Shown here one piece after another: positions 1 through 58,300 of a DNA stretch of 64,000 nucleotides. Numbering within the stretch: the first letter of the stretch is position 1; every line of letters begins with the position of its first letter. The position numbers and the translations under genes were made by a program. This stretch comes from Anas platyrhynchos (lineage: Eukaryota; Chordata; Aves; Anseriformes; Anatidae), in assembly GCF_047663525.1 (NCBI RefSeq), contig NC_092590.1:9692001-9756000 (forward strand), read 5' to 3'. Under the pieces are notes generated by a model. It was not told where the DNA came from. It ran no database searches and worked only from the letters and a program-made list of their open reading frames with translations.

Positions 1-382
1 AATACTCTATAGCCTATTTAGTAATAGCGCGTTTATTACACATTGGAAAGGGAGAACCTCTTGCAGAAATCTAGACCATTCATGTATTACACATACATGC
101 GCACAAAAAATATAGTGTGGATACACACAAATATATACATGTGTTTAACTAGACTTCCTCTAGTTAAAATTCAAAAATGAAATACGAATTTAAATAACAT
201 TCACAGTTTAAATATGAGTTTTACACTAAGTGCATTTCAAATCCTGGATTCTTTCATTCTGCTGTTGAGCGCAACTTAGCACCACCTGTGATAAACATCC
301 AAGTAGATGTATACTGACTTAACTCTTCAAAAAAAATTGAGTATAGAGAATTCTTATCTATCTGTATTTCAGTGCACCTTAC

Positions 383-3300
383 CTCATGCTCTTTTTGTGT
401 TTTCTTTTCCAGCATTTCAAATTCTTCTGTTTCTCTCTTTTCCTTCAGTTTCGCCTTCATTTCATTTACTTCTAATTTCAGCTGTTCATTTTCTAACACG
501 ACTTTATTCAAGTTAGCTTTTAGGACATTGACTTCACTGACAGCAAGGTCCTAAAAAAAGGACAACAAACTTTAGGAGAGGTTATTGGGATTTCGGTCTT
601 ATTTTTAAGACACTAATGGACAGGCTTACCTTTTCTAGCGTTGAAACTTCACAGCGTTGTATAGATTCTTCAAAGTCTTTCAGAGTCTAGAAAGAGAATC
701 ACTTCTAGTTAGCTGATGTACAAGCCGAAGCAAGTTTATTATATTCCTTGTTGCTTGTCTTTTCACTGCTAGTCCTGTTTAAATACCAAAGCTCACTAGC
801 CCATTCTCCACAAAAACATCCCACAACTTCAAACAGATGACAGACTTGCTTTCTAACTAGTTAGTTGCAAAAAAGATTGTCGATGCCCTAAAGAAGGGTA
901 AGGCTGACCTTACTGAGAAGCATGGAACGTGTATACACCATGCAAGGCCAACTGAAGAGATTATGAAGTTACCCAGTTCATGTCAGGTCCAGGAGTCCAC
1001 TCTGTATCCGAAATTTGATCGGGAAGAGTTAAACGTTGGTTGTCATTTTCAGAACTCTCAGAAAATGTAGCTGAAAAGGAAGATGTACTCTCACTCTATT
1101 TCTAATGCATTTTAAACTAGACATCAAGAGTTCTGTCAAAGATTTCACCACACCAGAAATAATCATTCAATAGCAATGATGTAGCACAGTGAGTAACGTT
1201 TCTGAATCTATAAATTTAGATTTATAAGCAAGGGATTATTCCTCATTTTCAGGTCTTCATTTCAAAGCTGCCTTGCAGAATTTTATTGTTCTCCTTCCGC
1301 CCCACAAAGATACTTACAACACTTTCCACCCCACAAAGATACTTACAACCCTCTCCACCTGGTAGTAAAGACAGGGACGCTTTCATTTTTTTTGTTTCAG
1401 TCAATTCCGTTTTTTCAAAGTCTTCAAAATAATTCACATTCTTCTGGGTTATTTTACCAGGAGCCCATGTAACTCTTCTTCTTCTCTTGGCCTTAAAAAA
1501 AATATATATTTATTTTACGATTTTATTTATAGAAAATGGTGATCTAAGCACTACGTAGAGAGTAGATGTAGCAGTAACTTATGCAACAACAGTCCTGCAG
1601 GCTATCCTACAGTACCTTCTGCTTTGCAGTTTCTTCAAAACTGAACTACAGCACGATTATTTGTAAGCAAAAGTCTTGTTCAAAATTGAATGAATGCTTA
1701 CTCACAAGTTATTTAAGAGGTTATTCCTTAAAAGTGTGAAAATTGAGCACAAACACTTACAGTTGGTCTGGGCATATTGAAAGTGAAGTCTCAGGACTGC
1801 ATAACTCAAACTTATTCTTCATTTTCACAATGACTCTATATAAGATCTGTAACTCTAAACAAGATCTGTAACAGCTGCTCTTACTTTAATATCCTGTTTT
1901 GCTGAAAACGAGGCAGAAGTCACCAGCATCTCAGTTAAGTTTCGTATCCTATCCTCCTGCGCTTTCTGAAGAGAAAGTTTTTCTTCCAGCAACTGGGCCA
2001 ATTGATCTTTTTCCACCGCGTGAAGTTGAGTCTTCAGAGACACCTTCCATAAAAAGATCAATCATATCGACATGGTACAAGAGATAAGGTATTATTAGTA
2101 ATTAAAAATGACACCACGTACATATATTCTTCTAAGTCTGGAAGAGCTGTCTCTAGTCTTTAAGAAAGCAACTGACAATTCAGTCCACAATTTACCCATA
2201 GACTTAGTATTTCAAGTCTGTATATGCAAGTATTTAGAAAAGCAAAACAATATAGCTACAGACTTCTCTAGGAATTTAAAAAATAGAGAAAGCATGCTTT
2301 CAAATATAACAGTTTAAGCTCACCTCTCCACAGGGCCTGAAGCTCTTTCATAGCTATGATTTAATTGTCACATAACAATATGCTTCTCTAATGCAAGCAA
2401 TGTCTCAAAATTTTGGGCACTGATAATTTATTCTGTTGTAAAGCAACTGCATTGCAGTAACTAGTTATTTGACAGCTTAGTTATCTTGCGATAATTAAGT
2501 ATTTAGAGATGAATACACGCAATTTTCTAATAACCTCTTCTGTACTTAACAGAAGTACTTTCCTGACTACGTCATGTTATAACAGAACAAGCATACCACT
2601 AGGTGGAAATCTATACTTCAAATTAATTTTTTTAAGCCAAATCTTTCCTTAACCTTTTTCTATAACTCTTCCTGCCCCCCCGCCCCCCAAAAAAATATTG
2701 CTTTGATTTAAATCATCGAAAGATGCATCATGTCTAAGTTGCGATTTTCCCATGCTTCACATATTATGATGCATTCTCTTACAACACCTGCAGGATTCTC
2801 ATCAACACTGTATTGGCTATTTTTTTTTTGTTGTTTGTTTGTTTTGAGCAAGATGAATGAGACTACACTGTATGGTGGGAAGTCTCAAGTCATCCACTTT
2901 TAAAACATATCTTCAACATACACACAACAGACTTTGCCACTGATCTTACACAGCTGCAGCTTAGGCTGAACATCTGTTAGGAAGGAGGAAATAATCCATT
3001 TGGAACCTTCAATTATAATACAGGAGGTTATTGAGCGTCAGTTAATTATTGCTTTCATTTGTAGCACTATCGAAGTGTACTATGAGGCACGATAAGTTTC
3101 TTAAACTCTCTCACCTACAAAAACATTCGTCAGTCAGTTGGCCTCGCTTAGCGCTAGCTTTCACCCAGATACACTGGTCATTATCAATTGCTTTACGTTT
3201 CGCTTTGTTTTCAATTTTTATTCTCTGAATATAAGCAACAATTACCGGCTTAAAGGGTTTCCCCACCCCTCCAGATTTAACTGGTCTTGGTTTAAAACAG

Positions 3301-6300
3301 TTTCCAAATAGCTACCACTGTAAATATACAAAAGTACGCGTATATATACACACACACACGCAATACATATGCACACAGGCATATATAAACTATAAATTTT
3401 ACTGTATTTATTACATACTTCCTCCAGCTGCTTTTTCAAATCCAGAATTTCTTTGCGATATCTCTTCAGGAGGGCATCATCATTAAGAACTTCATTGACT
3501 TTTGGCGTATTCTTCATTCCTTTGGCTGTATTGGCAAACTGGAAGAGCAACCATCATCTCTCATGGACAACGGTTAAAGAACAAATGCATCAAGAGACGT
3601 ATTTTCTCTCTTATTTCCCAACAGAGTTAAGGGAACAGCTGAATGACAGAGAAGTGTGCTTAAGCAAAACCACACCTAATTATTTTTCAATATAAAGATC
3701 TAGAGAGCACCAAAAGGAAGACAATCCTGCCTAAAGCTCATCACTAGTTCATTTACCCTCTCTTCTTGTAGAAGCTGGCTAAAATGTTGTCGAACTGCCA
3801 AAAAGCTCTAGCTAGCCAAGCTAGTACAACAATGTGACTGAGAGAACACGCAGAGAACAAAATAAACACATTTCATGTCCCAAGTGCAGAGGACCTTCAG
3901 AAGGTTCCAGTGACTAAAGACCCCTGCCCGTCACATTTTTCCCCCCACCCCAAGCCATCAATATTAAAGTCTAGAGTCAGAATGATGCTTGACAACAGGC
4001 AAGAAGGTTTACCTGAAGAGTACTGAGTGTTTCATCAAAAGAAACAGGAGTGATTGTACAAATAATAACCGTCTTAGCATTTCCTCCAAGAGAGTTCTGT
4101 AGAATTCGAGTCAGCTTGCTGTCACGGTAATTTATGAAACTGAGGGGAAAGTAAGAAAACAGATTTAAAAAGTCATTTTTCTATGAAAAACAGTATTGTC
4201 TTAAGGTGACAGAACATTTAGGAGAGCTATATAGAATACTATTTGATGTCTAAAGAGATTTAACTTCTTAATTTATCAGTGACTTGTCCAAAAAGAGGTA
4301 TGTCAACACAAGCACTTACCCAGAAGGGTCGTCACAAAGCTTTTTGATAACTTGGCCCAGAATGAACAAACTCCGATTTATATTGCAGCCTTCTTTCAGT
4401 CGGAGACCTAGGTATTACACAGCATTTTCTTTCTTGAAGATGTATCTAAATGTTGTTTTATTCAACATGTCAAGGTGTTGTGTTATGTTATGCTCAGAGG
4501 GATTGTCCAGAGTTACATCTCCAGTACCAAAATGCACTGTGACACATCAGCACCCAGTATCAAGTCTTTTAGAATAACCCAAATGAATCAAAGTCTATCA
4601 GTCTATCACAAATGAGCATTAATAATCTTCACTTAGTAGGTAGTCAGGGCCAGAGGAACGTGAATTTCGTTAACAAAGTTTATTTTGTATTTAGACGTGC
4701 AATTAAAATTGGCACTTGCAGGAAAAAAAAAAAAAAAAGAAAGAAAGAAAAAAATAGAATCTAACTGTACCAAACCAGCCTTAGATTCAACTTTCAGGGT
4801 AGTCACACCTTTTAAGAGAGGATATTCACGTGTTATTCTCAGATTATGATTCTTTTTTTTTAATAATGGCATTTTTGTTCTTCATGCTGTCTTTTTAACT
4901 AAGCCTGATTGTTAACACAGTGAGCTATCTACTTACTCTTCAGCTTTATATATTTATTAACAGTCCGTACGAGCTTCTAATGATTTCTTTACTACAGATT
5001 ATTCATCTTCATTATATTAGTACAGCCTACAACTTTTGCTGGACCTGCCGTTCCAGAAAAGCCATGTCACTACACAATTGTCTGCACTTTACAACTTTTG
5101 CTATTTTCCTGAGCAGATCCTCACCTGTCAAGTGGAAAATACATTACTTAGAAATAACAACATCACATGGATAGAAGCTTCCTTTCCATCACAGCCTCTC
5201 ATTAAACCTTAATTAACAGAAACTGTCATAAGGAGAACTTCATTCAACACTCACCTTCAGATCCTGTTTGACTAGCTCTTTCACTGCCTGCCAGATCTAC
5301 CAAGTTCTGCAACATTAAACGTTTCACTGATTAGTTCTGGGGGTAATTTAATTTCAGATCCTCTTAATTCTAAATCCGTGCTAAGAATTTCATAAAATAT
5401 AGCTATGCTTTGGAAAGAAATAGGAAAAAAAACAAACAATTGCTCTCTCATTACTGGAAGTGATACGCAACTCCACAACATTTCAAAAAAATAATTTCAA
5501 AGTGCCTAAGGATATCAAATAAGATCATAGGAACTCTATTAAGAGAAATTCTATATAGGAATTCTGTTCTCTTAATAGAAACTCTATTAATAGCAGCTTT
5601 AACATTTGCTACTTCAGAATTATTTCACTGGGTTTGTCAGTGATCAGGAACACTCAGAGGGTAAGCTGTGTTTGACAAAAATGTGGACACACACTGACAA
5701 TAGTCCCTTACGCTCCTGGGGAGGACATCACACTCCTCAGTCCAGCATGTATTGTCTAGGAACTCTAACCACATCAACATTCCCTCTGCTGGGAGGATAG
5801 CCTCCAGATAACGCCCCAGGAGTCTCCGTCTATACAGATGATCAGAAGCATGATTTATGTCCAAGAAGCATCTGATAGAAATTAACAACAAAACATGCTT
5901 GCAATGTCGTTCTAAAATAACATTTTTCTCACAGGCAAGCTGCAACAGTAAACTCCCTGCTTAAATGCCTGCTTAACAACTTCTTAGAGTACTTCTTACC
6001 AAGTGCGACACCATCACTGCTCCATCACAGTTTGCATTTGCAAGGTCACTTCGTTCTCGGCTTTCAATTATCTAGAAGAAGCAGGCACAATAAGCTTTTG
6101 TCACTTCAAATATTTAATAAAACAAAACAACCTTCTCATAGGAAAAGGCTTTTACCATTCTGAAGATGGTGTGAGAACGGCTGCTGTGTTCATTCATTTT
6201 TGTTTCCCCATAATGGCAATTTTCTGTCAAAAAAGAGTATTAGAAATACTTCTGTTTCTGAAATACACATGTAGAAATACAACCCAATAAACTGGAGATA

Positions 6301-9300
6301 AAAGACAAGGACAGCCTTTAAGCTCGCAAGCAGCAATTTCTGAATATTATCTAAAAGACACTCAGGATTCTAGATGTATACAATTCAATACTTTCCTAAA
6401 ATATCAGCTGACACTGGTTGAACAGCTTACTTTCTCCTTTCCTGATCCATTCCATAACTTCTTCTGGGGAAACAACCACCTCTTCAGTGAGGTCTTCTAC
6501 AAATGTATTTCTCTTAAGCAAACAAAGCAAAAAAAAGGTAAAAACCAGTATTAAATAACTTACTGAAAATTATAATTCACTTGAATACGTTAAGTTAACA
6601 TTACCAAGAATTATGACTGTACTTTTAAAGGGAAGTGAGATTAGTTGAATGTATTTTTGCTTTAGTTCGCCTCTTGAAAAAAAGAGGAAAATTTAGACCT
6701 ATAACAGTACTATAACCTGAAGAGACAAAAACCAGAGCTCCAGCAACCATCCTAAAAATTACATTGGTAAGGGAGATTCCCTCAGAATAGGTCCAGAAAG
6801 ATATATCTGGAAGCGTTATAAGGCCATTATCATGGAGCTTATGTGTCTCCCCTCTTCCCAGATTCTAATACAAAAATAATTAAAAATACAAATAATTAAA
6901 ATAATAATTATACTTATATATATATATATATATATTTATATATAATAAAATAAAAAATAATTAAAATACAAAAACAGTTTGTCACAAAGCTTGATATCAA
7001 GAACATAAGGATAGCATTATTTTATTTTTCCCTACAGATTATTTTACTGCATAGTACTACTCTGATAACTTTTCTGCGATTACAGTAGAAGAAAATTCTG
7101 CCCACTTTGTAGATGACATACAGAGCTGCTTTAATAGCATCTTTCTATCTTTTGAAGACTTCTAACGCATTGAGCTAGGGAATCAATACCATGTTTGTAG
7201 TTCCACTAGCTAGAAAAATCCCAAGTATTCACTGTTTTAGTTAAATAAAATACACTCTCTTGGAAAACGTCAAGAATGAAGTCTACGTTTTATAAACATT
7301 TATAAAGATAAGTCAGCAACAGCAAGCCCAGCTTCGCTGTTGCTGTTCTATTACATAAAAGTGCCTTTCTGCTGTCTTTGAATATAACAAATACAGTTTG
7401 ATGAGGAAATGTTTTCACCTAGATGCCTCAAAGCTTTTTTTCCCCTCAAGCAGATGAAATTGATGTGTCTTCTTACATTAACATAATATCCACTTACATT
7501 AACATCCTCACGAATTCCTAGAGGCTTCTTTTTCCTGGTATCACAAAGCAAATCCGTAATGGTTTCATTGTAGATTTCCATGTAGGAAACTCTTAACAAG
7601 AATTCTCTGTCTGGAATCTAATGATTGCAAGAGGAAATAAAAACAACATTAAGCAAATTAGATCAGACTAAACAACGAACACCTTTAATTAAAGTACTCT
7701 GAACTCAAAGCTATATGCTTGGATATCTTTCCACAGACTTCTTTCCCCTTGGCACGTGAGCGTCTACAAATACAGATGCATTTCCTTCTGTCCCATCTCC
7801 TTCCAGCTGCATTAATGGTGTATCACGTTTATTAAGTCATAAAAGCAAACTAATTGGTGTACAGAAGCGTGACAATAGGTCAATTCAACTCCCCTTTCCA
7901 TACTTAATTCTTTTCTCTCTTCTTGGTGTAGCTTGACTTCTCTCTCTTCGACCTGCTTTGCTAGGAAAGGCCACACACTAGACTACAGCACCACAGAAAG
8001 TACAGTTACATTTATTTTTTTTTAATTACTTGGCTTTAAATACCTTTGCAGACCACCTCTGGGTGGTGCAATGAATTGCACAGAAGCCTTCCCAACTTAA
8101 CAGTGAGGACACAATACATATTTGGCTATCTGATGATATGCTATGCGGTATCAATCCAGCTGGATCTCATGCACGTCCATACAGATGACAGCCGGACAAG
8201 AACCAGACATAGCACAGCCACTTCACCTTCTCAGAAGAACCGACAGCCTTGTACATTCAAAGTCCAGGGTTAACGACAGCTGTCTCTAGTGGACTCAAAC
8301 TACCCAAAAGCCATAAGGAGCAGCTTTGTCACCTGAAGTCAGTGCCTTACATACAGCTCCTGATATGCTCACATCAATCTGCTAGTCCATTCCCCAGCAC
8401 AGAGGGCTTCAGTGTCCTACGCTTAGGCAGCCAGTGTCCTATATCCTGGGTGCAGACCCAGTGAATCCTTTCTAGCAGGCTTATCCCATGTTATACCTAG
8501 ATTCCCAGACAACTCTCAAACTATTAGCATTGACCAGTCTGGCTCACGATTCTTTTGAAAGCCTGAAGTAAGTAAATTCAGTTTAGTATTCTTCCCACTT
8601 AAAAAAAAAAAAAAAAAAAAGTCATTAATATTGTTAGTATTTTGAAGCTCAATTTTAAAATAGAAAAACAAAGAAGAAAGCTGCACATCACCTTGCCTAA
8701 GCTTGTAATTCAAGCATAATATATTGGCAAGCTTAAAAGCAATTGTTTTGTTACTGATTTGATTCCAAATATTTCACTTTCTTTTTTTACTTTTTAAAAC
8801 CAATGGCATCTCTGCAAGCTTAGCAAAGTGAGTGCAACATATCCTCCAATATAAACTGTTTATTTTCTTCACAAACTCCTTAATGCTAAAATTAGTTTTC
8901 CTTTAACATTCAAAAATATTGGTAGTCCTTTCAGTCACCTCCATTTCATGGAGTTACTCACCTCACAAATAAGTTTGAAGACATGTTGGATTGCCTTAGG
9001 AATAACGCCTACACAATCTTCGTTCCCCATCATGGTGTACGTCTTCCCTGAGGAGGTCTGTCCATAAGCAAAGATGGTGCCTAGGAAGATGATTAAGTCT
9101 TACCGACTATTTCCAAACTGCATTACAAATAGGATTAAAACACAGTTGTACAACCTACCGTTGTATCCTTGCACGGCTGATTGTATAATTGGAACAGCTA
9201 CACCTTCGTACAATTGCTGTGTGTTGTCACTTGAGTGAAAGACACGATCTTAAAGAAAAAAAAAAAAAAAGAAAAAAAGCATTTAAGAACATTGCACTGC

Positions 9301-10275
9301 AAATCAGAAACAAGCCGTCATCTTATTCAGCAATGCTGACTTCAAGTATTGTATCATGGACAGGGCCTTTACAGGATGATTTAAACATAAAACACAGTTG
9401 TGTCATTACTGTGCCAGCCTTCAGGAACAAAAGATTAAACCCAACACCAAAAGTGATGATGCAAAGACAACAGAGCCTCAAAGAAACTAAGAATGACAGA
9501 TGCAGTCGTCCCATTGAACCCTAAAAACGGTTAAGGCTGATCTATGTATCAGGACTGTAAGCCTGACAAGACAGGCTACTTGTTAATGCTGTAGCTTGGG
9601 CCACGTTCACCTGTATGCTGTGGTAAATCGTGTCTGGAGGCAGTACGGTGGAGCAGCAGGAAGATGCTGAAAGCAAAAGGATCTCACGTGCACGGCATCC
9701 CAATGCTCTGGGCTCATCCCAATGCTCTGGGCTCAGCGCAGCCACTTGTCACTGAGATGGGAGCACTACAGAGGGCATCTGCCACCTCGCTTGCAGATCA
9801 ACAGCGCCCAGCTCCTGCGCTCCAAAAACACCCCGCAGTGCAGCCCAGCACAGGGACAGGCACCGAGAGCAGGACGTTGGTTCCCCAAGGAGAATTCCTG
9901 GTCAGCACTGCCACACAAACACCACACCCGAAGCATGACGAGCCCGGGCACAACAACACGAGCCACGGGCAGCAGTGCCAGGACGCATTGCAGCCGCACA
10001 TCCCGCAGGCCCGCGGCAGCCCCAGCTGCTCCTTCCCACACACTCACCGTAGCTGAAGGCTCGGGCACCGCTCACTTCTGAGACCGTGTTCCCCTCGCTC
10101 CTCCAGTGAGGCGCCGCCTCGTCCCCCAGAGCGCTCTCCCTACGAGACAAAGCCCCCCGCTAAGCTCACCAGCTCCACCCGCACCCGCACCCCCACGCCG
10201 CCCAGCCCCTCGCCCTCACCTGGCGAGGAGCGGCCGCAGCCGCACGCAGACGGTAACGGCCCCTTCGTCAGCCAT
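383..10275 (-). CDS. CENPE: CENPE left copy, exons 1-17 (5' part of a kinesin-7 gene, runs off the window)
   Basis: Centromere-associated protein E is the plus-end-directed kinetochore kinesin that moves chromosomes to the metaphase plate. Exons on the minus strand, all with GT/AG borders and matching in length to the right copy: 10220-10275, 10048-10139, 9159-9248, 8962-9080, 7498-7617, 6431-6512, 6156-6223, 6000-6071, 5255-5306, 4320-4407, 4013-4139, 3419-3538, 1885-2043, 1359-1491, 973-1070, 630-686, 383-550. Joined they give 567 open codons. Motor domain residues 1-340: P-loop GQTSSGKT (86-93), switch I ending SSRSH (200-204), switch II DLAGSE (237-242). Neck and coiled coil follow, with RRVTW near 420-424. 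The start is the ATG of [15 protein letters not shown], the usual kinesin-7 N-terminus. Residue 189, Arg in the right copy and in the family, is Cys here. The 3' part would lie left of base 1. Identification is secure; whether this copy is expressed is not known. Confidence 0.95.
1291..1349. repeat. 29-bp tandem duplication in left CENPE intron 14
   Basis: The phrase CCCCACAAAGATACTTACAA occurs twice, 29 bases apart, just downstream of exon 14 on the minus strand. The right arm has one copy with a G-to-C change. Confidence 0.85.
1359..1491 (-). CDS. CENPE: CENPE left exon 14, PP1/Aurora motif exon
   Basis: Starts A-K-R-R-R-R-V-T-W. In human CENP-E the equivalent RRVTW overlaps a PP1-docking site whose Thr422 is phosphorylated by Aurora kinases; the motif is preserved in both copies here (Thr423 by my count). 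The annotated donor is CCAG then GTGGAG, which is weak. Two stronger GTAAGT sites follow in the intron of this copy only (1341-1346 and 1312-1317), inside a 29-bp tandem duplication. Confidence 0.85.
6156..6223 (-). CDS. CENPE: CENPE left exon 7, switch I exon with Arg189Cys
   Basis: Codes residues 187-209 and contains switch I, [11 protein letters not shown], which senses ATP in kinesin motors. The codon after AAT is TGC (Cys) here and CGC (Arg) in the right copy at 50325-50327. Arg is the residue usual at this place in kinesins (NR-x(4)-T-x-M-N). The change is a single C-to-T at a CpG. Splice sites are intact. Confidence 0.92.
6879..6965. repeat. AT-rich simple repeat, left arm only
   Basis: A block of AATTAAAA-like words and (TA)n that has no counterpart in the right arm near 49,660, where the flanks meet directly. 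Confidence 0.75.
8962..9080 (-). CDS. CENPE: CENPE left exon 4, P-loop exon
   Basis: Encodes residues 80-119, including the nucleotide-binding P-loop GQTSSGKT that grips ATP phosphates in kinesins. Acceptor CCTAG and donor GTGAGT are intact. The first codon is split (phase 1) with exon 3. Confidence 0.93.
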
Positions 10276-10290
10276 CCCCGCGGCGCCTCA

Positions 10291-10542
10291 GGAGCCGCCT
10301 CAGGAGCCGCCTCAGGAGCCGCCTCAGGAGCCGCCTCAGGAGCCGCCTCAGGAGCCGCCTCAGGAGCCGCCTCAGGAGCCGCCTCAGGAGCCGCCTCAGG
10401 AGCCGCCTCAGGAGCCGCCTCAGGAGCCGCCTCAGGAGCCGCCTCAGGAGCCGCCTCAGGAGCCGCCTCAGGAGCCGCCTCAGGAGCCGCCTCAGGAGCC
10501 GCCTCAGGAGCCGCCTCAGGAGCCGCCTCAGGAGCCGCCTCA
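10291..10542. repeat. 12-bp minisatellite, 21 perfect units, in the left CENPE 5' UTR/promoter
   Basis: The unit GGAGCCGCCTCA (plus strand) is repeated 21 times without a mismatch, ending 15 bases upstream of the left CENPE ATG codon (its A is base 10275). The right copy has just one TGAGGCGCC-like unit at this place (46372-46380), so the array expanded after the duplication or collapsed on the right. Confidence 0.95.
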
Positions 10543-10709
10543 GGAGCCCCTCGGGCCCGTCCCGCAGCCCGGGCCCGGCCGCCGCCGGGTTCGAACGGGG
10601 CCCGAGGCCGCCTCTTATTGGCCCGCGCCGCTGCTGCCGGGGGCGGGGGCGGGGCTGAGGGGAGCCGGGAGGGGGCTGAGGGGAGGGGAGGCGGAGGAAG
10701 GAGGCTGAG
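10543..10709 (-). promoter_or_regulatory. Left CENPE promoter, CCAAT box plus CHR-like element
   Basis: GC-rich, with CCAAT on the minus strand at 10617-10621 and TTCGAA at 10590-10595, a spacing of about 20 bases. CCAAT plus CHR (TTTGAA type) is the known arrangement of G2/M genes controlled by DREAM, B-MYB/FOXM1 and NF-Y, fitting CENPE's mitotic expression. TTCGAA is a variant of the consensus. Confidence 0.55.
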
Positions 10710-10787
10710 GCGGCTCCAAGGAGCCCACAGAACCCCCAGAAATGAGGCATCTGAAACTCACATTGAAGTTGGGCTCGTTTACGCTTG
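10710..10787. repeat. Single unit of the 112-bp repeat next to the left CENPE promoter
   Basis: Reads GGCTCCAAGGAGCCCACAG and then GGCATCTGAAACTCACATT, clearly related to the array at 13,049. It stands between the ERV block and the CENPE promoter. Confidence 0.75.
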
Positions 10788-11388
10788 GTTATAAATCAAG
10801 TCTCAACTCTGACTTTAGTAACATAAAAGAATATCTGTAAAAGGCGAGTAAACAGCGCTGGGTGTGCGGGGAGTCTGTGCTCCACCAACACGCACACACA
10901 AACATCAAACATTCCAAATATTAAATAAATAAATATTAAATAAAAGGCATTGCTTTACATAATAACCCGAGTATGCCTATACACACGTACAATCAGGATA
11001 GGTGACTGTGAGGAATGTGTTAACAATTCGTGTCCATAAAGAACAGTCCTGTCTGCCTCTGGGCCCTGCACTGGCAATTTAATTCTTGAACCACAGACGC
11101 AGTGTGTCCCAGTCTCCCCCTCACTCTAGTCAATTTATCAAGTCTTCAGAAAATGCTCCTCAAATTTATGAACCTGTTTGCTTTTGCTATTCCAGACTTC
11201 TAACAGTTACAGCCATTTTTCTCTCTTCTTCCAGATTAACTTAACACTGCTCTAGGTGTGACTGTCCCTGTGAATGGCTGGTGAAGAATGTTTTAATTAC
11301 TGGTGAAGTGTCAATAAGAAAGCTATTTGTGTTTGTATGAAGTCTTTGATGTCTGGAGGTTTCAGAACAACTGATAACAACTAGTGAA

Positions 11389-11869
11389 TGTTATGGGATA
11401 CTCTGCAAACCTCTGGTATCTGGCCTGGTGGCCAAGAGATTAAGAAGAAGAAAAAAGAAGCTGAAGGATGGCTGGGAGACAAGACCTGCAGAAAATGTTC
11501 TATAAACTTGGGACAGTGCCAAAGGAGTACAAAGGGAAGGACGAGAAAAAAACTTGGAGAGGAAGACTACGAGCCTTCAGCATGAAAGACCCCTAGAGAC
11601 CCCCAGAGGAGACTGATGCGCATGCTCCAGTAGGAGGGACTGGACCCCGGAAGCTAATTATAATAATCTGTTTTTTGTTAGAAGTAGTAAGGAATATGTA
11701 TTAGTCTAGGAGCATAGAAATCAGCTGCTTGATGTAACTGGTGTGCGTCCTGGTGGAGCGGAGACTCCCGGTGCACCCAGCGCTGTTTGCTTACCTCTAT
11801 TCTTTTATATTCTTTCAATAAATCCTATTTTTATTTAATCCTAATTTGAATCCTGAGCGATTTCTAACA
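11389..11869 (+). mobile_element. Solo LTR, left arm only
   Basis: 481 bp beginning TGTTAT and ending TCTAACA, with CAGCGCTGTTTGCTTACC and AATAAA near the 3' end, a typical LTR outline. It is in opposite orientation to the surrounding ERV block and absent from the right arm. I do not see a clear target-site duplication, and a further 380 bases of unique DNA (11,006-11,388) were also gained. Confidence 0.65.
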
Positions 11870-11942
11870 GAGCATTGCTTTACATACTAACCCAAGTATG
11901 CCTATACATACGTACAATCAGGATAGGTAACAAACAATCCTT

Positions 11943-12410
11943 TCAGTTCCATAACAGTCTCCGTTTTCCATTCTTCGGGCCTTTTGTATCCCGTTCTTCC
12001 CGGATCGAAGAAAAGCCTATCCATCTCCTTTTCAACGCCAATAGGCCTGGGCCAAAAGGCACGTTCAGGTCACCAGGAGGCGGAACAGCAAAGGCCTTCG
12101 ATGGCTGTGGCAGCAGAGGGGCCGATGGTGTAGCAGAAGGATCAGTGAAGGAGCCCGCAGCTCCCTCACTGTCTGGCAAATCCCACGTTTCTGACTGTGG
12201 TCCCACAGGGCTCTTTAAGGCCTCAGAGACTGCTCGCCAGGTGCCGAGCAATCCCACTGCAACCTTATCATTTTTAGTTGCAGAGTCCCACACCTTGACC
12301 TCAGTTTGGTCCCATATTTCAGGCTCGTAAACTGTCCAATAGTTAATAAGGAGAATAAGCTGTAAGGTTACCAGGACAGTCTCTGTTCCTAAGGACGTAT
12401 GATTCCCCAT
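11943..12410 (-). pseudogene. ERV-associated ORF, left arm copy (155 aa)
   Basis: Counterpart of the right-arm ORF with the same Met-Gly-Asn start and the same Trp-rich and Pro-rich regions; the C-terminus differs because the stop codon of the right copy is absent. Gag-like origin is inference. Confidence 0.35.
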
Positions 12411-13369: not shown

Positions 13370-13431
13370 ATATTTAATCTTTTCAAGTATTCGTGTTTTC
13401 TATATTGTAATCGTGTCTTCCTCTTCATCAC

Positions 13432-46062: not shown

Positions 46063-46063
46063 T

Positions 46064-46386
46064 CCCTGCAGTGCCACGAAGCCCCCTAGCTTCCACAGGA
46101 GAGCAGCACCGCGAGCCCTTTCCAGGCGGAAAGGCTCCGATTCCTCAAACGCTTCTCTAACCGGCGCCTCAAAACCTATTCGCACCGCGTTAACGCCTCA
46201 GCGAGCGGGCTCACGCCTCGCGGGCGGCCATTCCGCGCCTCCCCTCAGCCGCCTCCCGCGTCCCCGCCCCCACGGGCGCCATCCTTTCCCGTCAGCGAGC
46301 GGCGCGGGCCAATCGGCAGCGGCCCCGGGCCCAGTTCAAACTCCGGCGGCGGTCGGGGAGCGCTCGGCCGCTGAGGCGCCGCGGGG
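46064..46386 (+). promoter_or_regulatory. Right CENPE promoter, CpG-rich, CCAAT box plus canonical CHR
   Basis: CpG island upstream of the ATG with GCGGGCCAAT (CCAAT 46309-46313) and TTCAAA at 46335-46340, the reverse complement of the consensus CHR TTTGAA. About 170 bases of this island (46,064 to about 46,240) have no counterpart in the left arm. Confidence 0.6.
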
Positions 46387-49300
46387 ATGGCTGACGAAGG
46401 GGCCGTTACCGTCTGCGTGCGGCTGCGGCCGCTCCTCGCCAGGTGAGGGCGAGGGCGAGGGGCTGGGCGGCGTGGGGGTGCGGGTGCGGGTGGAGCTGGT
46501 GAGCTTAGCGGGGGGCTTTGTCTCGTAGGGAGAGCGCTCTGGGGGACGAGGCGGCGCCTCACTGGAGGAGCGAGGGGAACACGGTCTCAGAAGTGAGCGG
46601 TGCCCGAGCCTTCAGCTACGGTGAGTGTGTGGGAAGGAGCAGCTGGGGCTGCCGCGGGCCTGCGGGATGTGCGGCTGCAATGCGTCCTGGCACTGCTGCC
46701 CGTGGCTCGTGTTGTTGTGCCCGGGCTCGTCATGCCTCAGGTGTGGTGTTTGTGTGGCAGTGCTGACCAGGAATTCTCCTTGGGGAACCAACGTCCTGCT
46801 CCCGGCGCCTGTTCCTGTGCTGGGCTGCACTGCGGGGTGTTTTTGAGCTGGGCTCTGTTGATCTGGAAGCGAGGTGGCAGATGCCCTCTGTAGTGCTCCC
46901 ATTTCAGTGACAAGTGGCTGCGCTGAGCCCAGAGCATTGGGATGACGTGCACGTGAGATCCTTTTGCTTTCAGCATCTTCCTGCTGCTCCACCGTACTGC
47001 CTCCAGACACGATTTACCACAGCATACAGGTGAACGTGGCCCAAGCTACAGCATTAACAAGTAGCCTGTCTTGTCAGGCTTACAGTCCTGATACATAGAT
47101 CAGCCTTAACCGTTTTTAGGGTTCAATGGGACGACTGCATCTGTCATTCTTAGTTTCTTTGAGGCTCTGTTGTCTTTGCATCATCACTTTTGGTGTAGGG
47201 TTTAATCTTTTGTTCCTGAAGGCTGGCACAGTAGTGACACAACTGTGTTTTATGTTTGAATCATCCTGTAAAGACTCTGTCCATGATACAATACTTGAAG
47301 TCAGCATTGCTGAATCAGATGACGGCTTGATTTTGATTTGCAGTGCAATGTTCTTATGTGCTTTCTTTTCTTTTTTTTTTTTTTTTTTAAGATCGTGTCT
47401 TTCACTCAAGTGACAACACACAGCAATTGTACGAAGGTGTAGCTGTTCCAATTATACAATCAGCCGTGCAAGGATACAACGGTAGGTTGTACAACTGTGT
47501 TTTAATCCTATTTGTAATGCAGTTTGGAAATAGTCGGTAAGACTTAATCATCTTCCTAGGCACAATCTTTGCTTATGGACAGACCTCCTCAGGGAAGACG
47601 TACACCATGATGGGGAATGAAGATTGTGTAGGCGTTATTCCTAAGGCAGTCCAACATGTCTTCAAACTTATTTGTGAGGTGAGTAACTCCATGAAATGGA
47701 GGTGACTGAAAGGACTAGCAATACTTTTGAATGTTAAAGGAAAACTAATTTTAGCATTAAGGAGTTTGTGAGGAAAATAAACAGTTTATATTGGAGGATA
47801 TGTTGCACTCACTTTGCTAAGCTTGCAGAGATGCCATTGGTTTTAAAAAGTACAAAAATGTGAAATAGTTGGAATCAAATCAGTAACAAAACAGTTGCTT
47901 TTAAACTTGCCAATACATTACGCTTGAATTACAAGCTTAGGCAAGGTGATGTGCAGCTTTCTTCTTTGTTTTTCTATTTTAAATCTTAGCTTCAAAATAC
48001 TAACAATATTAATGACTATTTTTTTTAAGTGGGAAGAATATTGAACTTACTTCAGGCTTTCAAAAGAATCGTAAGCCAGACCGGTCAATGCTAATAGTTC
48101 GAGAGTTGTCTGGGAATCTAGGTATAACATGGGATAAGCCTGCTAGAAAGGATTCACTGGGTCTGCACCCAGGACATAGGACACTGGCTGCCTAAGCATA
48201 GGACACTGAAGCCCTCTGTGCTGGGGAATGGACTAGCAGATTGATGTGAGCATATCAGGAGCAGTATGTAAGGCACTGACTTCAGGTGACAAAGCTGCTC
48301 CTTATGGCTTTTGGGTAGTTTGAGTCCACTAGAGACAGCTGTCGTTAACCCTGGACTTTGAATGTACAAGGCTGTCGGTTCTTCTGAGAAGGTGAAGTGG
48401 CTGTGCTATGTCTGGTTCTTGTCCGGCTGTCATCTGTATGGACATGCATGAGATCCAGCTGGATTGATATCGCATAGCATATCATCAGATAGCCAAATAT
48501 GTATTGTGTCCTCACTGTTACGTTGGGAAGGCTTCTGTGCAACTCATTGCACCACCCAGAGGTGGTGTACAAAGGTATTTAAAGCCAAGTAATTGAATTT
48601 AAATAAAAGTAACTGTACTTTCTGTGGTGCTGTAGTCTAGTGTGTGGCCTTTCCTAGCAAAGCAGGTCGAAGAGAGAGAAGTCAAGCTACACCAAGAAGA
48701 GAGAAAAGAATTAAGTATGGAAAGGGGAGTTGAATTGACCTATTGTCACGCTTCTGTACACCAATTAATTTGCTTTTATGACTTAATAAACATGATATAC
48801 CATTAATGCAGCTGGAAGGAGATGGGACAGAAGGAAATGCATCTGTATTTGTAGATGCTCACGTGCCGAGGGGAAAGAAGTCTGTGGAAGGATATCCAAG
48901 CATATAGCTTTGAGTTCAGAGTACTTTAATTAAAGGTGTTCGTTGTTTAGTCTGATCTAATTTGCTTAATATTGTTTTTATTTCCTCTTGCGATCATTAG
49001 ATTCCAGACAGAGAATTCTTGTTAAGAGTTTCCTACATGGAAATCTACAATGAAACCATTACGGATTTGCTTTGTGATACCAGGAAAAAGAAGCCTCTAG
49101 GAATTCGTGAGGATGTTAATGTAAGTGGATATTATGTTAATGTAAGAAGACACATCAATTTCATCTGCTTGAGGGGAAAAAAAGCTTTGAGGCATCTAGG
49201 TGAAAACATTTCCTCATCAAACTGTATTTGTTATATTCAAAGACAGCAGAAAGGCACTTTATGTAATAGAACAGCAACAGTGAAGCTGGGCTTGCTGTTG

Positions 49301-52300
49301 CTGACTTATCTTTATAAATGTTGATAAAATGTAGACTTAATTCTTGACGTTTTCCAAGAGAGTGTATTTTATTTAACTGAAACAGTGAATACTTGGGATT
49401 TTTCTAGCTAGTGGAACTACAAACATGGTATTGATTCCCTAGCTCAATGCGTTAGAAGTCTTCAAAAGATAGAAAGATGCTATTAAAGCAGCTCTGTATG
49501 TCATCTACAAAGTGGGCAAAATTTTCTTCTACTGTAATCGCAGAAAAGTTATCAGAGTAGTACTATGCAGTAAAATAATCTGTAGGGAAAAATAAAATAA
49601 TGCTATCCTTATGTTCTTGATATCAAGCTTTGTGACAAACTGTTTTTGTATTTTAATTATTTTGATCCATGCTTTTAGAATCTGGGAAGAGGGGAGACGT
49701 ATAAGCTCTATGATTATGGCCTTATAACGCTTCCAGATATATCTTTCTGGACCTATTCTGAGGGAATCTCCCTTACCAATGTAATTTTTAGGATGGTTGC
49801 TGGAGCTCTGGTTTTTGTCTCTTCAGGTTATAGTACTGTTATAGGTCTAAATTTTCCTCTTTTTTTCAAGAGGCGAACTAAAGCAAAAATACATTCAACT
49901 AATCTCACTTCCCTTTAAAAGTACAGTCATAATTCTTGGTAATGTTAACTTAACGTATTCAAGTGAATTATAATTTTCAGTAAGTTATTTAATACTGGTT
50001 TTTACCTTTTTTTTGCTTTGTTTGCTTAAGAGAAATACATTTGTAGAAGACCTCACTGAAGAGGTGGTTGTTTCCCCAGAAGAAGTTATGGAATGGATCA
50101 GGAAAGGAGAAAGTAAGTTGTTTAACCCGTGTCAGCTGATATTTTAGGAAAGTATTGAACTGTATACATCTAGAATCCTGAGTGTCTTTGAGATAATATT
50201 CAGAAATTGCTGCTTGCGAGCTTAAAGGCTGTCCTTGTCTTTTATCTCCAGTTTATTGGGGTGTATTTCTACATGTGTATTTCAGAAACAGAAGTATTTC
50301 TAATACTCTTTTTTGACAGAAAATCGCCATTATGGGGAAACAAAAATGAATGAGCACAGCAGCCGTTCTCACACCATCTTCAGAATGGTAAAAGCCTTTT
50401 CCTATGAGAAGGTTGTTTTGTTTTATTAAATATTTGAAGTGACAAAAGCTTATTGTGCCTGCTTCTGCTAGATAATTGAAAGCCGAGAACGAAGTGACCT
50501 TGCAAATGCAAACTGTGATGGAGCAGTGATGGTGTCGCACTTGGTAAGAAGTACTCTAAGAAGTTGTTAAGCAGGCATTTAAGCAGGGAGTTTACTGTTG
50601 CAGCTTGCCTGTGAGAAAAATGTTATTTTAGAACGACATTGCAAGCATGTTTTGTTGTTAAATTCTATCAGATGCTTCTTGGACATAAATCATGCTTCTG
50701 ATCATCTGTATAGACGGAGACTACTGGGGCATTATCTGGAGGCTATCCTCCCAGCAGAGGGAATGTTGATGTGGTTAGAGTTCCTAGACAATACATGCTG
50801 GACTGAGGAGTGTGATGTCCTCCCCAGGAGCGTAAGGGACTATTGTCAGTGTGTGTCCACATTTTTGTCAAACATAGCTTACCCTCTGAGTGTTCCTGAT
50901 CACTGACAAACCCAGTGAAATAATTCTGAAGTAGCAAACGTTAAAGCTGCTATTAATAGAGTTTCTATTAATAGAATAGAATTCCTATATAGAATTTCTC
51001 TTAATAGAGTTCCTATGATCTTATTTGATATCCTTAGGCATTTTGAAATTATTTTTTTGAAATGTTGTGGAGTTGCGTATCACTTCCAGTAACGAGAGAG
51101 CAATTGTTTGTTTTTTTTCCTATTTCTTTCCAAAGCATAGCTATATTTTATGAAATTCTTAGCACGGATTTAGAATTAAGAGGATCTGAAATTAAATTAC
51201 CCCCAGAACTAATCAGTGAAATGTTTAATGTTGCAGAACTTGGTAGATCTGGCAGGCAGTGAAAGAGCTAGTCAAACAGGATCTGAAGGTGAGTGTTGAA
51301 TGAAGTTCTCCTTATGACAGTTTCTGTTAATTAAGGTTTAATGAGAGGCTGTGATGGAAAGGAAGCTCCTATCCATGTGATGTTGTTATTTCTAAGTATT
51401 GTATTTTCCACTTGACAGGTGAGGATCTGCTCAGGAAAATAGCAAAAGTTGTAAAGTGCAGACAATTGTGTAGTGACATGGCTTTTCTGGAACAGCAGGT
51501 CCAGCAAAAGTTGTAGGCTGTACTAATATAATGAAGATGAATAATCTGTAGTAAAGAAATCATTAGAAGCTCGTACGGACTGTTAATAAATATATAAAGC
51601 TGAAGAGTAAGTAGATAGCTCACTGTGTTAACAATCAGGCTTAGTTAAAAAGAGAGCATGAAGAACAAAAATGCCATTATTAAAAAAAAAAAATCATAAT
51701 CTGAGAATAACACGTGAATATCCTCTCTTAAAAGGTGTGACTACCCTGAAAGTTGAATCTAAGGCTGGTTTGGTACACTTAGATTCTATTTTTTTCTTTC
51801 TTTCTTTTTTTTTTTTTTTCCTGCAAGTGCCAATTTTAATTGCACGTCTAAATACAAAATAAACTTTGTTAACGAAATTCACGTTCCTCTGGCCCTGACT
51901 ACCTACTAAGTGAAGATTATTAATGCTCATTTGTGATAGACTGATAGACTTTGATTCATTTGGGCTATTCTAAAAGACTTGATACTGGGTGCTGATGTGT
52001 CACAGTGCATTTTGGTACTGGAGATGTAACTCTGGACAATCCCTCTGAGCATAACATAACACAACACCTTGACATGTTGAATAAAACAACATTTAGATAG
52101 ATCTTCAAGAAAGAAAATACTGTGTAATACCTAGGTCTCCGACTGAAAGAAGGCTGCAATATAAATCGGAGTTTGTTCATTCTGGGCCAAGTTATCAAAA
52201 AGCTTTGTGACGACCCTTCTGGGTAAGTGCTTGTGTTGACATACCTCTTTTTGGACAAGTCACTGATAAATTAAGAAGTTAAATCTCTTTAGACATCAAA

Positions 52301-55300
52301 TAGTATTCTATATGGCTCTCCTAAATGTTCTGTCACCTTAAGACAATACCGTTTTTCATAGAAAAATGACTTTTTAAATCTGTTTTCTTACTTTCCCCTC
52401 AGTTTCATAAATTACCGTGACAGCAAGCTGACTCGAATTCTACAGAACTCTCTTGGAGGAAATGCTAAGACGGTTATTATTTGTACAATCACTCCTGTGT
52501 CTTTTGATGAAACACTCAGTACTCTTCAGGTAAACCTTCTTGCCTGTTGTCAAGCATCATTCTGACTCTAGACTTTAATATTGATGGCTTGGGGTGGGGG
52601 GAAAAATGTGACGGGCAGGGGTCTTTAGTCACTGGAACCTTCTAAAGTTCCTCTGCACTTGGGACATGAAATGTGTTTATTTTGTACTCCGTGTGTTCTC
52701 TCAGTCACACTGTTGTACTAGTTTGGCTAGCTAGAGCTTTTTGGCAGTTCGACAACGTTTTAGCCAGCTTCTCCAAGAAGAGAGGGTAAATGAACTAGTG
52801 ATGAGCTTTAGGCAGGATTGTCTTCCTTTTGGTGCTCTCTAGATCTTTATATTGAGAAATAATTAGGTGTGGTTTTGCTTAAGCACACTTTTCTGTCATT
52901 CAGCTGTTCCCTTATCTCTGTTGGGAAATAAGATAGAAAATACGTCTCTTGATGCATTTGTTCTTTAACCGTTGTCCATGAGAGATGATGGTTGCTCTTC
53001 CAGTTTGCCCATACAGCCAAAGGAATGAAGAATACGCCAAAAGTCAATGAAGTTCTTAATGATGATGCCCTCCTGAAGAGATATCGCAAAGAAATTCTGG
53101 ATTTGAAAAAGCAGCTGGAGGAAGTATGTAATAAATACAGTAAAACTTATAGTTTATATATGCCTGTGTGCATATGTATTGCGTGTGTGTGTGTATACAC
53201 GCACGCGTACTTTTGTATATTTACAGTGGTAGCTATTTGGAAACTGTTTTAAATCAAGACCAGTTAAATCTGGAGGGGTGGGGAAACCCTTTAAGCTGGT
53301 AATTGTTGCTTATATTCAGAGAATAAAAATTGAAAACAAAGCGAAACGTAAAGCAATTGATAATGACCAGTGTATCTGGGTGAAACCTAACGCTAAGCGA
53401 GGCCAACTGACTGACGAATGTTTTTGTAGGTGAGAGAGTTTAAGAAACTTATCGTGCCTCATAGTACACTTCGATAGTGCTACAAATGAAAGCAATAATT
53501 AACTGATGCTCAATAACCTCCTGTATTATAATTGAAGGTTCCAAATGGATTGTTTCCTCCTTCCTAACAGATGTTCAGCCTAAGCTGCAGCTGTGTAAGA
53601 TCAGTGGCAAAGTCTGTCGTGTGTATGTTGAAGATATGTTTTAAAAGTGGATGACTTGAGACTTCCCACCATACAGTGTAGTCTCATTCATCTTGCTCAA
53701 AACAAACAAACAACAAAAAAAAATAGCCAATACAGTGTTGATGAGAATCCTGCAGGTGTTGTAAGAGAATGCATCATAATATGTGAAGCATGGGAAAATC
53801 GCAACTTAGACATGATGCATCTTTCGATGATTTAAATCAAAGCAATATTTTTTTTGGGGGGGGGGCAGGAAGAGTTATAGAAAAAGATTAAGGAAAAATT
53901 TGGCTTAAAAAAATTAATTTGAAGTATAGATTTCCACCTAGTGGTATGCTTGTTCTGTTATAACATGACGTAGTCAGGAAAGTACTTCTGTTAAGTACAG
54001 AAGAGGTTATTAGAAAATTGCGTGTATTCATCTCTAAATACTTAATTATCGCAAGATAACTAAGCTGTCAAATAACTAGTTACTATAATGCAGTTGCTTT
54101 ACAACAGAAAAAATTATCAGTACCCAAAATTTTGAGACATTGCTTGCATTAGAGAAGCATATTGTTATGTGACAATTAAATCATAGCTATGAAAGAGCTT
54201 CAGGCCCTGTAGAGAGGTGAGCTTAAACTGTTATATTTGAAAGCATGCTTTCTCTATCTCTATTTTTTAAATTCCTAGAGAAGTCTGTAGCTATTTTGTT
54301 TTGCTTTTCTAAATACTTGCATATACAGACTTGAAATACTAAGTCTATGGGTAAATTGTGGACTGAATTGTCAGTTGCTTTCTTAAAGACTAGAGACAGC
54401 TCTTCCAGACTTAGAAGAATATATGTACGTGGTGTCATTTTTAATTAGTAATAATACCTTATCTCTTGTACCAGTAGTTTGTACTCTTTATGTCAACATG
54501 ATTGATCTTTTTATGGAAGGTGTCTCTGAAGACTCAACTTCACGCGGTGGAAAAAGATCAACTGGCCCAGTTGCTGGAAGAAAAACTTTCTCTTCAGAAA
54601 GCGCAGGAGGATAGGATACGAAACTTAACTGAGATGCTGGTGACTTCTGCCTCGTTTTCAGCAAAACAGGATATTAAAGTAAGAGCAGCTGTTACACATC
54701 TGGTTTGTTAAATCTTACATAGAGTCATTGTGAAAATGAGGAATAAGTTTGAGTTATGCAGTCCTGAGACTTCACTTTCAATATGCCCAGACCAATTGTA
54801 AGTGTTTGTGCTCAATTTTCACACTTTTAAGGAATAACCTCTTAAATAACTTGTGAGTAAGCATTCATTCAATTCTGAACAAGACTTTTGCTTACAAATA
54901 ATCGTGCTGTAGTTCAGTTTTGAAGAAACTGCAAAGCAGAAGATACTGTAGGTTAGCCTGCAGGACTGTTGTAGCACTAACTTATGCAACATCTACTCTC
55001 TACGTAGTGCTTAGATCACCATTTTCTATAAATAAAAATATTTATTTTAAATTTTTTTTTTAAGGCCAAGAAAAGAAGAAGAGTTACATGGGCTCCTGGT
55101 AAAATAACCCAGAAGAATGTGAATTATTTTGAAGACTTTGAAAAAACGGAATTGACTGAAACAAAAAAAATGAAAGCATCCCTGTCTTTACTACCAGGTG
55201 GAGAGGGTTCTAAGTATCTTTGTGGGGTGGAAGGAGAACAGGAAAATTCTGCAAGGCAGCTTTGAAATGAAGACCTGAAAATGAGGAATAATCCCTTGCT

Positions 55301-58300
55301 TATAAATCTAAATTGATAGATTCAGAAACGTTACTCACTGTGCTACATCATTGCCATTGAATGATTATTTCTGATGTGATGAAATCTTTGACAGAACTCT
55401 TGATGTCTAGTTTAAAATGTACTCTCACTCTATTTCTAATGCATCTTCCTCTTCAGCTACATTTTCTGAGAGTTCTGAAAATGACAACCAACGTTTAACT
55501 CTTCCCGATCAAATTTTGGATACAGAGTGGACTCCTGGACCTGACATGAACTGGGTAACTTCATAATCTCTTCAGTTGGCCTTACGTGGTGTATACACGT
55601 TCCATGCTTCTCAGTAAGGTCAGCCTTACCCTTCTTTAGGGCATCGACAATCTTTTTTGCGTCTAACTAGTTAGAAAGCAAGTCTCTGTCATCTGTTTGA
55701 AGTTGTGGGATGTTTTTGTGGAGAATGGGCTAGTGAGCTTTGGTATTTAAACAGGACTAGCAGTGAAAAGACAAGCAACAAGGAATATAATAAACTTGCT
55801 TCGGCTTGTACATCAGCTAACTAGAAGTGATTCTCTTTCTAGACTCAGAAAGACTTTGAAGAATCTATGCAATGCTGTGAAGTTTCAACGCTAGAAAAGG
55901 TAAGCCTGTCCATTAGTGTCTTAAAAATAAGACCAAAATCCCAATAACCTCTCCTAAAGTTTGTTATCCTTTTTTTTAGGACCTTGCTGTCAGTGAAGTC
56001 AATGTCCTAAAAGCTAACTTGAATAAAGTTGTATTAGAAAATGAACAGCTGAAATTAGAAGTAAATGAAATGAAGGCGAAACTGAAGGAAAAGAGAGAAA
56101 CAGAAGAATTTGAAATGCTGGAAAAGCAAACACAAAAAGAGCATGAGGTAAGGTGCACTGAAATACAGATAGATAAGAATTCTGTATACTCAATTTTTTT
56201 TTGAAGAGTTAAGTCAGTATACATCTACTTGGATGTTTATCACAGGTGGTGCTAAGTTGCACTCAACAGCAGAACGAAAGAATCCAGGATTTGAAATGCA
56301 CTTAGTGTAAAACTCATATTTAAACTGTGAATGTTATTTAAATTCGTATTTCATTTTTGAATTTTAACTAGAGGAAGTCTAGTTAAACACATGTATATAT
56401 TTGTGTGTATCCACACTATATTTTTTGTGCGCATGTATGTGTAATACATGAATGGTCTAGATTTCTGCAAGAGGTTCTCCCTTTCCAATGTGTAATAAAT
56501 GCGCTATTACTAAATAGGCTATAGAGTATTTTGAAGTTAGTGAAGTGTGGCTTAATAAGCATACTCGTTTCTTGTATAGGACAGTTCAGTGAGTTACAAA
56601 GATCAGAGCGATGTCAGCATTATCTTGAAACATTGTTTAACTCGGTCATAATGCGAATGGTGATGTCTGTAAAAGGAAAAAATAAAAGCTGTTTTGTGCC
56701 ACAAAGTCAGAACATTCTGCCTAGTGGATAATATGATACAGGACATGCAGACTTCCAGTTCCTTTCGCCTCCTCATGCGTTTTGTGGACATCTTTTTTTG
56801 TCCAAATGTCTGTTTTCTTTCTATGCTCTAATTCTGTTACAAGTAATACGTACTTCTACTTAGGCATTACGTTCTAGTTGCCCAAGGGCTAGTCTGTCAA
56901 ATAAGTTACAGAAGGAAAAGAGACATTTGAGGTATTGAGACACGGGTGTACTTTATTCCATTTCTTACTGTTGAGGGATTTTTGAAACAGCAAAGATCCC
57001 ACGGCTTGCCGCAGCTGAGCAAACCAAGTCCCCATGACAGTGTTCCCACACTGCCCAATTGAGGAATTCAGAAAAATATTGTTGCCAGTAGCTGGCTTCA
57101 GGGACAAGGTCTACGTGACTGCTAATCACAAGGGGGTTGTTTTCCTGCAGGTGGGGTTGTTTTCTTGTAGTTGTTTGTCTGAGTGCTTTTGACCAATAAT
57201 CTTGAGTGAGACACTATCCTCCCGTTTAAGTTCACTAGAAAAGTCAGGCTATTCGGGTAATAAAATGGAGCATGATCTGACCCTACTGGTGTCTGTCATG
57301 TCTTCGGCCGTTCTTCCTGCAACATCTTACCTCATACCTTTTCCAGAAGGAGCTGATTCTTTGCTGTGTTGGCTGCAGACTGGTTGTACGCCCTAGGCTG
57401 TTTCATATCCTCTTACCATGATGCTAAGGTTGAACTGAAGTTGCATCCTTTCGCCCTGTTTCAGGTTACAATTTAACAGCCTCACCTATTAGTTGTGTTC
57501 CCCACAAAAATGTATAGGTATATTCTGAAGCCAACATTGAACAAATTGTGTTAGAATTGTCCCTGAGAAACCTGTGTGTCTACTGACAAGTAGTCTAAAG
57601 TACCTTAAGTTGCAAGAACTGCTTTTTGAATAAATCCTACCTTCAGATCCATATCTGAAGATACTCCCTAAACTGTAAGCATTTGACACCTGTGTAGCAA
57701 AGTAATTACAGCATAAGTGACAGGTCACCTACTTTGCTGAGCAGATTTGGCTGAAATCATCAATTTCAGCCAGCAGACACACAGGGGTAAACTCTACTGT
57801 GAATAATGACAGGAAGTGACTTTTAACAGGTAGTTTGATACTGTTTCTACAGCTCTCCTCTGACCTGAAAATTACAGGTTAGGTTTCCTCCTCCCTATGC
57901 TTGTAGCTTTTCTCTGTAGTCTTCTACTTGTGCCTCCTTTCAGAGGATGCAACTTGAACATGTTTATGGCTTGCTTGCTTCACCTCAGCTCTGACACTTC
58001 CTAATTCTTGTCACTGAATAGATTGCATTAGATAGCTGCGCTGTGTTGTAAAAAGCTGCTTAACGTGACCAATCTGAAGTTTCATACCTTACAGATTTGT
58101 GCATGAAATGGCTTTGATCACATTGCTTTCACTTCTCGAGCTGTGTAAAATTAAGTTGGACTTGAAATCTTTCAATTTGCTGGGAAGCGGAAATGGAGCT
58201 TTGCATCTTATCTATCAGTTTGAAAGGGTGTAGCAGCTTGCTTTGTACCTGTTTAAATACATATTCATGTATATGGTTTGCTAACTAACAGAAAAGAAAA

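Follow-up and report, generated by a model that had tools for sequence, protein, structure and literature searches.

Organization of the locus

The 64,000-base stretch of the mallard (Anas platyrhynchos) genome analyzed here (NC_092590.1, positions 9,692,001 to 9,756,000; hereafter the window) contains an inverted repeat, each arm of which carries a copy of CENPE, and the neighboring gene RSPH4A, most of whose exons lie between the arms. The locus is probably (we would say with a probability of about 0.85) a real inverted segmental duplication that gives the mallard two CENP-E genes. The repeat consists of the following parts:

1 to 14,004, minus strand: left arm, which leaves the window at base 1 (self-alignment)
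14,005 to 43,874, no strand: spacer of ~30 kb, with RSPH4A exons 1 to 5 on its left side (Pfam scan of frames)
43,875 to 56,530, plus strand: right arm, outer end fixed by the window start (self-alignment)

Self-BLAST of the window resolved the arms into four main blocks with identities of 96.9% (1-6,892/56,530-49,645), 96.2% (6,954-10,297/49,663-46,365), 95.9% (11,972-13,032/45,550-44,499), and 95.6% (13,365-13,998/44,503-43,875), a match far beyond chance. A segmental duplication is commonly defined by copies that are ≥1 kb long and ≥90% identical within the same genome; the two inverted arms exceed both values, and two protein sets are listed on one contig. The alignment of the arms is interrupted just upstream of CENPE (10,297 to 11,972 on the left and 45,550 to 46,365 on the right) and again by an insert present only on the left (13,035 to 13,367). 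Because the left arm runs off the window at base 1, the right-arm match can be followed only as far as 56,530, and the repeat may extend farther outward than the window shows. An earlier note on this DNA had described a palindrome of 1 to 14,004 and 43,874 to 56,530 around a spacer of about 30 kb. Both arms and the spacer were recovered, with the inner right end at 43,875, but that account had overlooked the interruptions within the arms, the RSPH4A gene between them, and the stray copy of its exon 6 on the right.

No N was present in the 64,000 bases, junctions included. Besides RSPH4A, no Pfam family was detected in the spacer in the frames scanned (for 14,001 to 23,900, those of the minus strand), and a tRNA scan with bacterial settings and an Rfam scan of the DNA were both empty.

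Two CENPE copies

The motor protein CENP-E serves in chromosome alignment and is generally treated as the product of a single gene. Three CENPE segments were placed by using splice sites and the duck proteins:

383 to 10,275, minus strand: left CENPE copy, 17 coding exons, residues 1 to 567 of protein entry P0128 except for one alternative splice (exon comparison)
46,387 to 56,147, plus strand: right CENPE copy, the 17 exons common to the left arm, 567 of 567 residues of entry P0127 (exon comparison)
58,404 to 63,001, plus strand: right CENPE copy, 8 further exons, residues 568 to 1033 of P0127, identical (past the shared part seen in the window)

The 17 coding exons are of equal length in the two arms, as the earlier note had reported, and they are free of stop codons and flanked by GT/AG at all internal splice sites. 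The left copy departs from P0128 by a single alternative splice (A for GGEGS). Four mallard CENP-E entries, P0126 to P0129, were among the matches listed for one right-copy exon used as the query, each on one contig of 80,154,792 bases; P0126 and P0128 are both named isoform X3, which fits two genes. The mallard annotation contains two distinct full-length CENP-E proteins, one per arm (1985 and 1993 residues), and according to the annotated P0127 and P0128 both copies have the long coiled coil and the C-terminal tail, of which the window reaches residue 1033 on the right and residue 567 on the left. The left gene looks partial because the window edge cuts it. Reading the copies as 5' halves, as had been proposed, is therefore ruled out, since both are annotated at full length and the right copy runs eight exons further, to residue 1033.

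Each exon of the right arm was matched by its frames to human CENP-E (chains 1t5c and 6m4i), and the same two chains were the best PDB matches of the right copy and of a piece of the left copy, in agreement with a CENP-E motor. Both copies are predicted to have a kinetochore role in cells, and most likely they act as two active genes for the same kinetochore motor.

One codon difference affects the motor. Codon 189 is CGC in the right copy (Arg) and TGC in the left copy only (Cys). Residue 189 is Arg in 82 of the 84 CENP-E proteins with a recognizable pattern among the matches listed (the pattern was unmatched in 36 of 120 proteins), and the two with Cys are isoforms of the left copy. All five PDB alignments at this residue, to human CENP-E and kinesin-1 types, have Arg. 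Arg189 precedes a motif that we take to be switch I.

The mallard CENP-E proteins have ~1,964 to 1,993 residues, compared with 2,237 in goose. Some 230 to 250 residues found in goose and Anseranas are missing from the mallard protein, and Mergus retains part of them (window positions 63,001 to 64,000); an exon-like remnant at 63,833, outside the mallard models, resembles goose CENP-E. Exons 1 and 2 (46,387 to 46,620 on the right; 10,275 to 10,048 on the left) have a third-position GC content of 0.81 to 0.83, versus 0.24 to 0.52 in exons 3 to 17, and all of their residue changes on the duck stem are GC-ward (7:0). A nameless CENP-E entry of 2033 residues (P0159; 47 members; source "lgn") lies on a 7.9-kb contig; it is too long for an intron-bearing gene on such a contig and is therefore perhaps a transcript or a retrocopy.

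RSPH4A and the direction of copying

The inner ends of the arms are marked by RSPH4A and by a repeat that we take to be CR1-like:

13,432 to 20,880, minus strand: RSPH4A, six open exons, matching mallard entry P0001 at 602 of 605 residues (translation, tblastn, and Pfam)
44,229 to 44,436, plus strand: orphan copy of RSPH4A exon 6 on the right, with 6 differences from the left exon in 208 bases, acceptor AG intact (exon comparison)
13,830 to 14,325, plus strand: CR1-like repeat in RSPH4A intron 5, limits set by eye, arm homology stopping inside it at ~14,004
43,875 to 44,073, minus strand: cut copy of the intron-5 repeat, bounding the right arm on its inner side, 97.0% identical across 199 bases (alignment)

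The RSPH4A exons are located at 20,880-20,522, 20,049-19,818, 18,188-17,433, 15,899-15,755, 14,947-14,830, and 13,639-13,432, so that exons 1 to 5 (20,880 to 14,830) sit in the spacer and exon 6 sits within the left arm. Pfam detected no RSPH4A parts on either strand of 24,001 to 43,800, and in tblastn searches, pieces of exons 1-2 and of exon 5 gave low-E-value matches only at the left gene. Since exons 1 to 6 are consecutive on the left alone and exon 6 stands by itself on the right, the left locus appears to have the ancestral RSPH4A-CENPE order and the right locus to be the inverted duplicate. The C-terminal end of mallard RSPH4A (13,432 to 13,500, minus strand) is altered, differing from that of an Oxyura entry that ends LAFKAAKEKALAAAEEEPEGDEEEDMIKI.

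On the left the CR1-like repeat continues to 14,325, and on the right it is cut off; left of 43,875, similarity to either the repeat or the left flank was no longer found. A second CR1-like 3' piece, inverted, at 41,001 to 41,200, is 72% like 14,128 to 14,310 and is therefore an older CR1-like copy; at that likeness, the idea that the right flank holds the remainder of the interrupted repeat is ruled out.

RSPH4A and CENPE lie on equally long contigs in at least 25 other bird species (matched by eye among the matches listed), including small contigs of shared size in Aleadryas (46,457 bases) and Mesitornis (64,239 bases). From the orphan exon and the bird gene order, the left locus is thus taken as the ancestral one and the right locus as its newer daughter. 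The copied block would start in RSPH4A intron 5, inside the CR1-like repeat, and would run through RSPH4A exon 6 and the whole of CENPE. It would have been inserted in the opposite orientation ~23 kb upstream of RSPH4A, leaving the old bird order RSPH4A-CENPE at the left locus and a daughter marked by the orphan exon on the right.

The same junction could be read as a false join, in which the arms are haplotypes of a single CENPE locus that the assembler oriented oppositely. Right-arm homology does start inside an interspersed repeat, which is a common place for a misjoin, and an annotation of the same assembly would repeat the error. However, there is no N in the window, and an overlap-based join is left unexplained, since neither the CR1-like repeat nor the left flank matches further left of 43,875. 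Two full-length protein sets lie on one contig, and alleles are expected to be less divergent than the 2.5 to 3.3% seen in noncoding sequence, let alone the promoter block, at 70 to 78% identity (see below). We consider a false join improbable. The preference of the earlier note for two loci over two haplotypes is strengthened by the two distinct full-length proteins on one contig, the orphan RSPH4A exon in one arm, the contrasting promoters, and the absence of N at the junctions.

The chromosome is presumably the equivalent of chicken chromosome 4, judging from chromosome sizes and synteny, and on the same grounds the CENPE pair would be autosomal. The accessible text of PMC11200594 does not state the chromosome of CENPE. 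The analogy with sex-chromosome or ampliconic palindromes kept alike by conversion, also raised in the earlier note, draws on the inverted arms and on the patchy divergence described below. Ampliconic sex-chromosome palindromes have arms that are >99% alike and a short spacer; the mallard arms are 95.6 to 96.9% alike, and the 30-kb spacer carries an ordinary gene. Together with the linkage to RSPH4A in at least 25 other birds and the spread of CENPE-bearing contigs over size classes (Falco, 127 Mb; Apus, 115 Mb), this makes the analogy very hard to sustain.

Promoter blocks

The interruption upstream of CENPE coincides with the two promoters, and further repeats lie on the left arm:

10,276 to 11,972, minus strand: left promoter block, diverged, with CCAAT (-346) and TTCGAA (-320), counted from the ATG (sequence comparison)
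45,550 to 46,386, plus strand: right promoter block, diverged, with CCAAT (-78) and TTCAAA (-52), counted from the ATG (sequence comparison)
10,284 to 10,552, no strand: minisatellite of 22.5 12-bp units (99% matches), immediately 5' of the left ATG; none on the right
13,035 to 13,367, no strand: three tandem 112-bp units, left arm alone (repeat scan and self-alignment)

The promoter blocks, which are GC-rich and repetitive, align at 70% and 78% with gaps counted. In both promoters the CCAAT box and a CHR-type hexamer are spaced by 26 bases, and on the left the minisatellite of 22.5 12-bp copies intervenes between this core and the ATG. The canonical CHR is TTTGAA, with the inverse TTCAAA, and TTCGAA is a variant; CENPE is listed as a DREAM/CHR target (both according to the accessible text of PMC4705690). 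The CCAAT and CHR-type pair suggests G2/M control of both genes. In the duplication that we favor, both copies would make full-length CENP-E, each promoter retaining its CCAAT and CHR-type site, and occasional gene conversion would take place between the arms, with the promoter block escaping. The blocks are either fast evolving or have escaped homogenization.

The 112-bp unit also occurs singly in each promoter (~10,691 to 10,800 and 45,960 to 46,066); the right promoter unit is 84 to 91% identical to the tandem units and 84% identical to its positional partner. The left block contains, at 11,040 to 11,970, long left-only sequence (gaps of 420 and 216 bases) bordered by units resembling the 73-bp repeat found on the right, which is perhaps an insertion of the long terminal repeat type.

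Divergence, constraint, and possible conversion

Over 1701 coding bases the two copies differ at 17 positions, 8 synonymous (368.0 sites) and 9 nonsynonymous (1333.0 sites), giving a ratio of nonsynonymous to synonymous differences per site (pN/pS) of 0.31 (Fisher p=0.017); the coding sequence thus still looks constrained. Codons 110, 189, 325, 418, 480, 494, 501, 503, and 561 are copy specific. Noncoding divergence was 209/8465 in introns, counted with a mask that included the 57-base CENPE exon 16 (3 differences) as intron, and 55/1670 upstream (2.5 to 3.3%). In a protein tree of 15 rows the left and right copies were sisters (100/100), 1.9% apart, compared with 6.5 to 6.7% from Aythya. The full proteins differ at 38 of 1985 aligned residues. 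With polarity set by duck, goose, and other bird proteins, 12 (+2) changes were derived on the left and 6 (+5) on the right, and 13 were undecided; these counts rule out the right copy as the clearly more degenerate one.

Differences between the arms are patchy: across 40 bins of 250 noncoding bases, the count per bin varies between 1 and 19 (variance/mean, 2.85; none of 2000 shuffles as high). The low-divergence patches are best read as traces of occasional arm-to-arm gene conversion. Such conversion had been proposed in the earlier note, and the patchiness is suggestive of it.

Several points weigh against a real duplication with two constrained, converting genes. Allelic variation, or constraint on a single copy, could also produce a pN/pS of 0.31, the longest difference-free run between the arms is borderline (p=0.05), and the patchiness may come from variation in mutation rate. 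The window may share its assembly with the annotation, so that the protein match need not be independent. The entries for Pterocles gutturalis place the two genes on different contigs (RSPH4A, 131,418 bases; CENPE, 23,712,234 bases), which probably belong to different assemblies.

A recent duplication without conversion, in which one copy is decaying and the promoter block changes fast through repeats and slippage, is a possible though less probable account. It would accommodate the derived changes in both copies (12+2 and 6+5, with 13 undecided, of 38 residues), the Arg189Cys change at a conserved site in the left copy, and a GC-rich, repetitive promoter block. However, decay agrees poorly with a pN/pS of 0.31 (p=0.017) and with 17 exons in either copy that have lost no splice site and gained no stop, and the patchiness of the arms outside the promoter would still need a cause.

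CENPE has evolved fast on the stem of Mergus, Aythya, and Anas, with a branch length of 0.085, versus 0.016 for Anser and 0.023 for Oxyura. By residue class its changes lean GC-ward (45:19, p=0.0016), as do those of the Aythya and Anas stem (21:7, p=0.013) and of the Anas stem (17:2, p=0.0007); the lean was not significant in Oxyura (13:6) or Anser (7:6). The separate tips show none (left, 4:4; right, 3:2), which argues against strong recent GC-biased conversion. RSPH4A is likewise fast in Anas (0.12, versus 0.036 in Oxyura, whose entry is flagged as low quality), and the CENPE speed-up may therefore be regional. Among the matches listed, CENP-E proteins are named "E-like" in Aythya and Mergus alone, a hint, no more, of further CENPE copies there. 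These names and the fast, GC-ward shared stem (45:19) hint at an older pair: the gene would already have been present twice, and kept so, when Mergus, Aythya, and Anas split, with GC-biased conversion homogenizing and speeding the gene bodies while the promoters drift and the left copy, with its minisatellite ahead of the ATG and Arg189Cys in the motor, gains a separate role, e.g., in germ cells or in the competition between centromeres during female meiosis. We regard this scenario, role included, as unlikely.

Significance and comparison with known systems

A natural CENP-E pair in a farmed bird would permit tests of dosage and of how two kinetochore motors divide their labor. Which way the block was copied can be read from the orphan RSPH4A exon, and the similar gene bodies beside diverged promoters make arm-to-arm conversion testable. 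Duck expression and variant studies would merge the two copies unless both are known.

Inverted duplication is a known type of event; the duck CENPE pair was not found in print in the open-licence PMC literature, to which the search was limited, and the accessible text of PMC12321929 has no bird content.

Inverted segmental duplications as a general class resemble the mallard locus in having two inverted arms (here ~97% alike), a unique spacer, and one breakpoint in an interspersed repeat, but the duck pair carries a gene for a kinetochore motor and a one-exon relic of a neighbor that gives the direction of copying. Sex-chromosome palindromes, as described in accessible parts of PMC3403216 and PMC11168930, share the inverted arms and possible arm-to-arm conversion, whereas the duck pair has a long, gene-bearing spacer and a lower arm identity and is probably autosomal. 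The CenH3 paralogs of Drosophila and Caenorhabditis (accessible parts of PMC8200288 and PMC9577544, respectively) are likewise duplicated centromere or kinetochore genes whose copies could specialize; the duck gene, in contrast, encodes the motor CENP-E, and any specialization of its copies would be hypothetical. Finally, the duck motor domain is closest to that of human CENP-E, a kinesin-7 (1t5c and 6m4i), but the duck has two copies, the left one with Cys in place of Arg189, and its proteins are shorter than that of goose.

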